Shown here piece after piece: positions 16,202 through 19,079 of a DNA stretch of 42,063 nt (its first letter is position 1; each line of letters starts with the position of its first letter). Below the pieces are notes generated by a model, which made no database searches, was not told where the DNA came from, and saw nothing but the letters and a program-made list of their open reading frames with translations. The translations under genes were made by a program, and so were the position numbers. Location of the stretch: assembly GCA_947371775.1 (NCBI GenBank), contig CANBQX010000002.1, forward strand, positions 1 through 42,063, written 5' to 3'. This DNA is from Comamonadaceae bacterium (lineage in GTDB: Bacteria > Pseudomonadota > Gammaproteobacteria > Burkholderiales > Burkholderiaceae_C).

Positions 16202-16388
16202 TTCTTGGCCCGGTGATTCACGTGCTTCTGGAGACCCCATGTTGGTAGCGCTTTTGCAAATGATGGGGTTCCCCGCAACGAAGGCTGTACACTCCCGCGC
16301 CGAAGGGACGGGTGCATTGCCTGCCTCCAGCGCAGGGGAGCCGAAACACCCTACCCTCGACCATCGCGTTACAGTTAGGAGTCCAGCA

Positions 16389-17480
16389 GTGAAAGCCATC
16401 AAAGCAAGCCCGAGCAAGGCAAAGGCGAGCCCCATTGCGAAGCCAAAGGCCAAAGCGACCCCGCTTGCAGCCACGCCAAGCAAAGCCAAACCTGCTGTCA
16501 AAGCGCCTGTGAAAGCCGCACCCAAACCCGCGCCTGCGGCAAAGAAGCCCGCTGCGACAGTGGCCAAAACACCCGCTAAAACACCGGCCAAGTCGCCGGC
16601 CAAAGCACCCGTAAAGGCAAGCGCAAAAGCCGCTACCAAGGCGTCGCCGACCAAGGCCACCATCCCTGCCAAGACAAAGCCCAGCCCGGTCGCAAGCAAA
16701 CCTGCCGTGGCCAAGAAAGTGACTGCGTCACCCGCTGCGGTGAAAAAAGTACCAAGCAAAGCAACTCCTGCCATGGCGCCTGCCGCCGTGGTCGAATCCC
16801 CAACCAAAGCCCCTGTGAATTCATCTCCTTCCAAAGCCGTCGCCCCCGTTCCTGCACCAGTCGCAGCAAGCACCGTTCCCGTGAAGTCAGGCCGCCCTTC
16901 GTCGCGTCTGGCGATGTTGACCGTGCCGTCGATGGCGCAGTCCGTGGCATCCACTGCGGCCAAGGCCAGCTTCAACCCGTCGAGCCAAGCCGTTTTTGCG
17001 CCCCCGGTGATTCCGGCCATCGTGAAAAAAGACAGCAAACTGGCCAACAATTGGAAAACCACGCCAGTGGAGCGCCTCACAGATGCTGAGTTACTCGCCA
17101 TGCCGGACTCGGAGTACATGAACGAGGTGCAAATGGCAGCGTTCAGACTCAAGCTCAACGTACTCAAACGCGACATTTTGAGCAGCGCCGGCGAGACCAC
17201 AGAGCACTTGCGTGAGGACACCTCGGTGGTTCCTGACCCCGCTGACCGGGCCACCATTGAAGAAGAGCACGCCCTGGAGTTGCGCACCCGCGACCGCGAA
17301 CGCAAGCTGCTGAAAAAGATCGAACAGTCGATTGCCCGCATCGACGCGGGGGACTACGGCTATTGTGATGAGACAGGCGAAGCCATTGGCGTGGGCCGCT
17401 TGCTCGCACGTCCGACCGCTACGCTGTCGCTGGAAGCCCAGCAGCGCCGGGAACTCAAGCAAAAAATGTTTGGTGACTAA
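16389..17480 (+). CDS. dksA: DksA-type RNA polymerase-binding regulator with long H1-like basic N-terminal tail
   Basis: DksA binds the RNA polymerase secondary channel and, with ppGpp, mediates the stringent response. The C-terminal 124 residues (240-363) are a full DksA core: NEVQMAAFRLKL, coiled-coil tip DPADRA (283-288) with both aspartates and the alanine, EEEHALELRTRDRERKLLKKI, and a finger region. Only one of the four zinc cysteines remains (C326; the others are T329, S347, A350). Residues 1 to about 170 are low-complexity Lys/Ala/Pro repeats like histone H1 tails. Start: the GTG at 16389 has AGGAG seven bases upstream. The alternative ATG at 16239 also has GGAG and would add 50 residues that look non-coding. 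Confidence 0.9.
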   Translation: MKAIKASPSKAKASPIAKPKAKATPLAATPSKAKPAVKAPVKAAPKPAPAAKKPAATVAKTPAKTPAKSPAKAPVKASAKAATKASPTKATIPAKTKPSPVASKPAVAKKVTASPAAVKKVPSKATPAMAPAAVVESPTKAPVNSSPSKAVAPVPAPVAASTVPVKSGRPSSRLAMLTVPSMAQSVASTAAKASFNPSSQAVFAPPVIPAIVKKDSKLANNWKTTPVERLTDAELLAMPDSEYMNEVQMAAFRLKLNVLKRDILSSAGETTEHLREDTSVVPDPADRATIEEEHALELRTRDRERKLLKKIEQSIARIDAGDYGYCDETGEAIGVGRLLARPTATLSLEAQQRRELKQKMFGD

Positions 17481-17501: not shown

Positions 17502-19079
17502 ATGAGCGAAACCCCGTCATCACCTGCGAGTGTTGCCCCGAGGGAATCGCCGAGCGCTGGTGCCGATGCACTTACCCAATCCGCTCGCACCGAGTGGATG
17601 CGCCAAGTCAACCATGTGCGCAAGCAGGAGTTTGCCTATCTGCGCAGCGTACAAAAGCGCCAGGCCGGCGAGGTCTCAGAGCCCACGCTGGCCGGCCTTC
17701 CCACCCGCGCGCAACGCACGGGAACGGTGCGAGGCGATACGCTGAAGAAAATCGACGAGATTGAGGCCCAGCTGGACTCACTGTGGGTCTCCAGTCGCGG
17801 TAAGCCGTCCGATTCCAATTTCGGTGCAAGCGCATTGGTTGCAGGTGCAAACACCGAGTTTTCCACGTCCGTACTGGCGGCACCAGGCGTGCTGACCCAA
17901 ATGATGCACCACAGCGAAATGCCAGCCTCGGCATTGCTGGTGCAAAGCCTGGACGCGCATGCCGCCAAATCGGCATTGGCCGCCACCAGTGGCGAGCTCA
18001 GTGAACGGGCGGCCATTCGGTTTGCACCCAGGGGCGCTACGACCGGTGCAGAGCTGCCCGATGAGGTCTTGGCCAAAGCGGCTGAGCTATTTGCACAGGC
18101 CCAGTATGAGCTGGCGGAACAGCATTTGACGCGATCCCTGCGGGGCAATGAGATGCGATCTGAGCATGCGTTGCGCCGCTTGCTGGCCTTGCTCGATATT
18201 TACCGCGCAACAGGTAACCAAGCGCAGTTTGACTGGTCCGTGCTGGAGTATTTTGATTTTTGGGATGGACACACCCCCCAGTGGCGGCGCCACTCCAGTA
18301 CCAAGGCAGAACCTTTTGCCTCGCGCGACACGCTGGAAATACCCAAACGCCTGGAAAAACCGAATCAACCCACTGGTACGCGCTTTTGGCGCTGTCCCAG
18401 CGTGCTCAACCGCGTGGTTGCGCAGGAGCTCCAAACCCATTGGTCGCAAGGCGGGAACTGCACCATCGACTGGACGTCCTTGAGCACGATTGAGGCAGAC
18501 GCTGCAGTCCAGCTGACGGCGGTGTTCAAAGCGGAGCAGGCTTCGCCTGCGCAGCTGATGTTTATTGATACACCCAACCTGCTGTATGTCTTGGAGCAGG
18601 CAACGCCCATCGGCAGCCCGAAGATAAATCGCCATCTTTGGCAGCTGCGCTTTTGCCTGCTGGCCCTCATGGGCATGCGCGCTGCTTTCGACGCAGCCTG
18701 TACCGATTTTTGTCTGACCTACATTGAGCCTGCGCCTCTTTGGCGCCCAAGCACCGTTCACTTTATCGGTGATGCTTTGGCCACCACACCGGTGATGCCG
18801 GAGCCCCCGGGCAACTCGCCTTGGTACTTGCATGGCCACGTACTCGGGGAAACGGGTCTGGGATTGGCGGAACCCACGCCTGGCCCATTGCAGGTGGACT
18901 GCGCCACGCTGGTGAGGATGGACACCTCGGCCACAGCGCTCTTGCTGCGGTGGCTGCGAAAGGCGGCTGCGCGCAGCTCCGAGGTGCATTTCAATGACGT
19001 CGGCCTGCTGCTTGGTGCCGCTTGGCATGCCGCTGGTGTCGAGGCCCTTGCGCACGTGCATTTGCGCGATGCGCCTTGA
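17502..19079 (+). CDS. Protein with two STAS-like domains and a TPR-like middle, function unknown
   Basis: The 525 aa soluble protein begins with a Ser/Pro-rich tail and a helical stretch (30-100, RQVNHVRKQEFAYLRSVQKRQ). A TPR-like helical pair follows (about 188-245, LAKAAELFAQAQYELAEQHL). Residues about 296-370 look STAS-like (WRCPSVLNRVVAQELQ...IDWTSLSTIEADAAVQLTAVFK). Residues 461-525 are a clear MlaB/SpoIIAA-like STAS segment: VDCATLVRMDTSATALLLRWLRKAAARSSEVHFNDV. The MDTSA turn matches the phosphorylatable position of anti-sigma antagonists. No kinase or sigma gene is adjacent. It lies 21 bases after dksA, so it is probably co-transcribed. STAS assignment is by eye. Confidence 0.7.
   Translation: MSETPSSPASVAPRESPSAGADALTQSARTEWMRQVNHVRKQEFAYLRSVQKRQAGEVSEPTLAGLPTRAQRTGTVRGDTLKKIDEIEAQLDSLWVSSRGKPSDSNFGASALVAGANTEFSTSVLAAPGVLTQMMHHSEMPASALLVQSLDAHAAKSALAATSGELSERAAIRFAPRGATTGAELPDEVLAKAAELFAQAQYELAEQHLTRSLRGNEMRSEHALRRLLALLDIYRATGNQAQFDWSVLEYFDFWDGHTPQWRRHSSTKAEPFASRDTLEIPKRLEKPNQPTGTRFWRCPSVLNRVVAQELQTHWSQGGNCTIDWTSLSTIEADAAVQLTAVFKAEQASPAQLMFIDTPNLLYVLEQATPIGSPKINRHLWQLRFCLLALMGMRAAFDAACTDFCLTYIEPAPLWRPSTVHFIGDALATTPVMPEPPGNSPWYLHGHVLGETGLGLAEPTPGPLQVDCATLVRMDTSATALLLRWLRKAAARSSEVHFNDVGLLLGAAWHAAGVEALAHVHLRDAP

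Follow-up and report, generated by a model that had tools for sequence, protein, structure and literature searches.

The DksA of Comamonadaceae normally carries a maintained, polycationic Lys/Ala/Pro tail

DksA, a stress-response factor of bacteria that binds RNA polymerase, is a global regulator known mostly from the short E. coli protein. In the window, by which we mean the whole 42,063-nt stretch of Comamonadaceae DNA that was analyzed, the dksA gene encodes a protein with a long Lys/Ala/Pro-rich N-terminal extension, and the question is whether such an extension is indeed made and maintained and, if so, what it could do for an RNA polymerase factor. An earlier note, written from the same DNA, had described a DksA fused to a histone H1-like tail in which three of the four zinc-finger cysteines had been lost. 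Its reading frame and coordinates, from the GTG codon to the stop, were right, and they are given with the other features of the locus in Table 1.

Table 1. Features of the dksA locus (positions in the window)
Feature	Position	Strand	Basis or remark
COG0523/CobW-type GTPase with His-rich segment	15107..16162	+	Pfam cobW, CobW_C; upstream of dksA
Promoter-like block	16288..16301	+	-10-like TACACT (16288-16293), then G+C-rich CCCGCGCC (16294-16301); 101 nt before GTG
Shine-Dalgarno-like AGGAG	16377..16381	+	7 nt before GTG, read from sequence
dksA gene	16389..17480	+	363 aa, GTG start at 16389, stop 17478-17480; Pfam and NCBIfam matches
Lys/Ala/Pro-rich, presumably disordered tail, residues 1-162	16389..16874	+	composition; net charge +31
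Linker motif, residues 168-195, GRPSSRLAMLTVPSMAQSVASTAAKASF	16890..16973	+	alignment of 73 relatives
DksA core, residues 220-363	17046..17477	+	coiled coil, DPADRA tip, one-cysteine finger
DPADRA tip, residues 283-288	17235-17252	+	aligns to E. coli DPVDRA
Sole finger cysteine C326	17364-17366	+	
Protein with C-terminal STAS domain	17502..19079	+	Pfam STAS_2; 21 nt after dksA

Pfam places DksA_N at residues 248-318 (E 2.4e-26) and the zf-dskA_traR finger at residues 321-355, both with scores over the cut-off, and the NCBIfam dksA profile TIGR02420 is matched with 136.8 bits against a cut-off of 115.5. These matches and the position of the tip agree on a DksA core in which the DPADRA motif is intact, as the earlier note had it. 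The AlphaFold model is of low confidence overall; its core, with two long helices as expected for the coiled coil, agrees with the E. coli DksA structures (5vsw and 1tjl). Hence, this gene and that of E. coli share a coiled-coil core, the DxxDRA tip and the fold, and both are genes for a global RNA polymerase factor. The E. coli protein differs in being 151 aa long, with four finger cysteines and without a basic tail, whereas the protein described here has 219 residues before the core and a single finger cysteine. No CarD_CdnL_TRCF domain was matched by Pfam in the 363-aa protein.

The finger itself is unremarkable for the order. Thr, Ser and Ala replace three of the cysteines and C326 alone is kept, an assignment that the alignment bears out, so one cysteine is found where a classical C4 zinc-finger DksA has four. 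The same one-cysteine state occurs in all 137 Comamonadaceae loci and in 46 of the 47 other loci of the order. It is the rule there, in line with the earlier note, which had called degenerate fingers known from other alpha- and betaproteobacterial DksA, and the loss of cysteines was dismissed as a special feature of this protein.

A DksA core was found at E ≤ 1e-20 in 300 of 301 Comamonadaceae genomes, nearly always exactly once, and the 363-aa protein is therefore the housekeeping DksA. The other two DksA-like matches in the genome are short C4 TraR/DksA-like proteins, encoded at positions 1249-1629 of locus L001 and 1137-1565 of locus L002 (contigs C123 and C220); each gene is followed by one for a related short protein (MSTFHAVVWLDHQEAHVMMFD...) without a convincing Pfam match, and the two similar genes with their followers make up a duplicated gene pair. 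The gene order cobW-dksA is reminiscent of the dksA2-COG0523 zinc-response unit of P. aeruginosa, whose DksA2 (PA5536, 4ijj) likewise lacks part of the cysteine set and has a COG0523 gene next to it (PMC10393844). However, DksA2 is a tail-less zinc-starvation backup that accompanies another DksA, whereas the protein described here is normally the sole canonical DksA, and a second DksA beside the main one was absent from nearly all of the 300 genomes.

Of 80 related loci, 75 have the COG0523/CobW GTPase upstream of dksA and 57 have, judged by similarity, the STAS-domain protein downstream of it. The latter, encoded between dksA and mraZ, is only ~24-30% identical in relatives as compared with ~65-89% for its neighbors, and it evolves unusually fast for its position. 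The end of a CobW-like gene with a His-rich stretch was also seen by eye upstream of dksA in a locus of another family (L029), which indicates that the neighborhood is older than the Comamonadaceae tail or independent of it. A region of the Comamonadaceae cobW-dksA type occurs in CALPVM020000003.1 as well, a record titled as an Akkermansia muciniphila MAG that is probably mislabelled or contaminated.

The tail is highly biased in composition: residues 1-162 contain A48 K32 P30 V16 S16 T13, and K, A, P, S, T and V together account for 96%. No comparable 160-residue stretch is present in any frame in the other open reading frames of at least 100 aa in the window, and in the genome, which is ~80% complete, no other protein was found to share the tail or the linker (E ≤ 1), one chance-level match (E 0.23) aside. 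Residues 1-219 match no Pfam family even at E 5, the linker-histone and HC2 profiles included, so the term "histone H1-like" refers to composition and not to homology. The earlier note had counted an extension of about 239 residues with some 170 of them in repeats. The extension is there, and its repetitive part is now refined to a K/A/P tail of about 162 residues; the remaining residues belong to the conserved linker (168-195), to a spacer and to the beginning of the core.

The note had also pointed out that an assembly error in the repeat region would undo the finding. This objection was not upheld. At a score of 30 no tandem array was detected in the tail DNA, and the codons are mixed, which makes a slip of the assembly in a DNA repeat unlikely; furthermore, homologous tails are present in independent assemblies, isolate genomes included.

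Is the long form translated? The Shine-Dalgarno-like AGGAG stands 5-9 nt ahead of the start codon in most relatives, and among 116 loci with a strong site, which include two tail-less loci outside Comamonadaceae, the start codon is GTG in 98, TTG in 10 and ATG in 8. No Shine-Dalgarno-preceded start was found between the GTG and the core. Further upstream, a match to TGTACACTCGCGCGCC with at most three mismatches precedes the start codon in 77 of 114 related loci, at a distance of 56-233 nt (median 107), and shuffling left no match at all; an exact 17-mer of this block is found in 41 of 198 loci, and T, A, A and T of its -10-like hexamer are invariant across 75 aligned copies. A full sigma-70 match upstream of dksA was not returned by a simple scan, and the block is a putative promoter. 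Promoters inhibited by DksA and ppGpp have a G+C-rich stretch after the -10 element. Such a stretch also follows the -10-like hexamer here, which resembles promoters under negative stringent control and suggests that dksA may be autoregulated. An in-frame ATG near 16240, with GGAG nearby, was considered as the true start and judged unlikely because it lies ahead of the -10-like block, which is conserved, as is the AGGAG-GTG further downstream.

Comparison of close relatives gave a dN/dS of 0.25-0.47 for the tail, 0-0.16 for the linker and 0.005-0.04 for the core, values that in low-complexity sequence are a rough guide only. Taken with the AGGAG-GTG pair, the promoter-like block and the lack of an internal Shine-Dalgarno-preceded start, they make it almost certain that the long form is translated. 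Translation from near the core, which the earlier note had named as the outcome that would refute it, would make the long form an annotation artefact; the mere 151 residues of E. coli DksA speak for this, and all of the above contradicts it. So does published work on a parallel long DksA: the dksA of X. euvesicatoria, annotated as 147 aa, was shown by peptides and start-codon mutagenesis to be translated from the first GTG upstream, and the study saw a processed DksA variant in addition (PMC5559785). We hence give the artefact hardly any chance. What the gene encodes is a DksA whose core features are intact and whose polycationic tail is maintained.

The composition of this tail is alike between relatives and its sequence is not. 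A K/A/P stretch of at least 60 residues occurs in 115 of 128 distinct Comamonadaceae loci, and one of at least 100 residues in 107 of them, these loci being best matches and not a random draw; the other 13 have no tail, and several of the 13 retain the linker. The named loci of the family include those of Rhodoferax, Limnohabitans, Polaromonas, Curvibacter, Ramlibacter, Variovorax and Acidovorax. In 114 loci whose start is clear, some near-copies among them, the extension has a median length of 205 aa and a median net charge of +35, and tail length ranges from 76 to 323 aa among relatives. Seven further families of the order and three gammaproteobacterial families also have tails of at least 60 aa; many of these loci had been picked for long open frames, and the counts are not frequencies. 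A tailed DksA is normally the sole canonical DksA of Comamonadaceae. The earlier note was right to single out the tail as the point of interest, but not in taking it as unusual for a DksA: it is the rule in this family and is seen again in other lineages. The linker, the promoter-like block and the status as normally sole canonical DksA had escaped that note.

On a tree of 81 cores, the tail state changes at least 14 times, of which three changes are forced by well-supported branches, so few because 124 columns resolve little. Repeated gain is likely, and the number of gains is uncertain. The DksA of Xanthomonas sacchari (WP_082028934.1, annotated as 383 aa) is alike in its GTG start, its long Lys/Ala/Pro N-terminal tail and its one-cysteine finger; the experimental evidence for a long form and an upstream GTG comes from X. 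euvesicatoria (PMC5559785), and the tail composition was read in X. sacchari. However, the Xanthomonas protein has a distant core and another segment between tail and core, and it belongs to a separate lineage, which makes its tail probably an independent gain. The X. sacchari dksA lies together with yidD on a 508-kb "plasmid" (NZ_CP010410.1) that is possibly a piece of the chromosome, as both genes are normally chromosomal. Apart from the Xanthomonas start-site study, no earlier description of the tail was found in the open literature. The tailed DksA is widespread and under-described.

These data bear on the simplest account of the tail, namely that it is a weakly constrained, expansion-prone segment of low complexity with little function, which drifts nearly neutrally and is tolerated since the N-terminus of DksA is exposed. 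The several-fold variation in length, the unconserved sequence and the losses in some members of the family would fit. However, the dN/dS of the tail, its stable composition and positive charge, its retention in the great majority of the family loci and the repeated appearance of a tail of this composition at one and the same end of DksA all argue the other way, and we consider this account unlikely.

Tail and core are joined by a 28-residue linker with the consensus GRPSSRLAqLTVPSMaqsVASTAAKASY throughout Comamonadaceae, which is kept in five tail-less members of the family. Elsewhere in the ~80% complete genome, a search with the linker returned its own gene and one chance-level match (E 0.23). 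The low-confidence AlphaFold model predicts it to be unfolded on its own, with pLDDT below 50, and gives no support to the idea that it is folded on the core. Probably, the linker serves as a docking site for a partner, with RNA polymerase as the likeliest candidate, or as a site of processing.

The charge of the molecule is split, with a pI of 11.4 for residues 1-219 and 5.1 for the core. It is conceivable that the basic tail acts on DksA itself by folding on the acidic core or by linking molecules to each other, so that activity is restrained or condensates are formed until proteolysis, possibly in the linker, frees a short DksA. The opposite charges, the conserved linker at the boundary and the processed variant in Xanthomonas (PMC5559785) are consistent with such a scheme. 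On the other hand, the processing in Xanthomonas was seen in another lineage, in which the linker differs, and in the model the linker does not pack on the core; we regard the scheme as improbable. As Xanthomonas has a processed variant, the tail may nonetheless be removed in part of the DksA pool.

The most plausible role of the tail is the binding of DNA or another nucleic acid. The earlier note, too, had inferred such binding, and its proposal that the tail may tether DksA to the chromosome or lead to clustering is plausible. We favor, with a probability of roughly 55%, a tethering mechanism, in which the disordered polycation holds DksA near DNA or RNA around RNA polymerase. An otherwise ordinary DksA would be made as a 363-aa protein with a presumably disordered N-terminal polycation. 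The tail would contact nucleic acid without sequence specificity, thereby concentrating DksA locally at RNA polymerase on DNA or at the nucleoid, and the acidic core would enter the secondary channel and act with ppGpp as in E. coli; the linker would dock on its partner or be cut. Such an arrangement would work like Myxococcus xanthus CarD, which also combines an RNA polymerase-binding domain with a basic, disordered, chromatin-like tail and stays functional when this tail is swapped for histone H1 or an H1 tail (PMC8156234). CarD differs in that its domain is unrelated and binds the beta subunit, and in that its tail is C-terminal with AT-hooks. Against tethering, the tail sequence drifts fast, and its composition fits DNA, RNA, polyphosphate or another polyanion alike. 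As the tail varies in length and is lost in parts of the family, it is not essential for DksA action.

Lys/Ala/Pro repeat tails are also found in AlgP, PhaF, PhaM and HC2-like proteins, for which DNA binding was shown or proposed; they sit there on other domains, and these proteins are granule organizers, not RNA polymerase factors. KPAA peptides of AlgP bind DNA, and AlgP is enriched at polyphosphate granules, the spacing of which requires its tail (PMC9239181). Hence, targeting of DksA to polyphosphate or PHB granules, which would couple the stringent response to storage polymers, stays alive as an alternative. In this role, KPAA tails serve AlgP (polyphosphate) and PhaF and PhaM (PHA/PHB). 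A Lys/Ala/Pro-rich HC2-like protein is abundant on the PHB granules of Herbaspirillum, where a dksA homologue is located upstream of one PHB synthase gene (PMC3783465), and a polyphosphate kinase is encoded in the present genome. However, DksA has no granule-binding domain, and DksA on granules was not reported in the literature found, so we think granule targeting quite unlikely. As AlgP-type proteins are thought to bind DNA too, an association with granules need not exclude the binding of DNA.

In a wider reading of the tethering mechanism, which we offer tentatively and hold to be possible but doubtful, several lineages have independently made their only DksA chromatin-tethered or condensate-forming by means of an H1-like tail, and the stringent response would then depend on the state of the nucleoid, RNA or polyphosphate through the length and charge of the tail. 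Since tails of different length, and losses of the tail, occur naturally in a single family, comparative work and simple deletions can put its role to the test. If a tailed, polycationic form is the only DksA in whole families, the rules established in E. coli may not carry over to them, and nucleoid, RNA or polyphosphate could feed directly into the stringent response.
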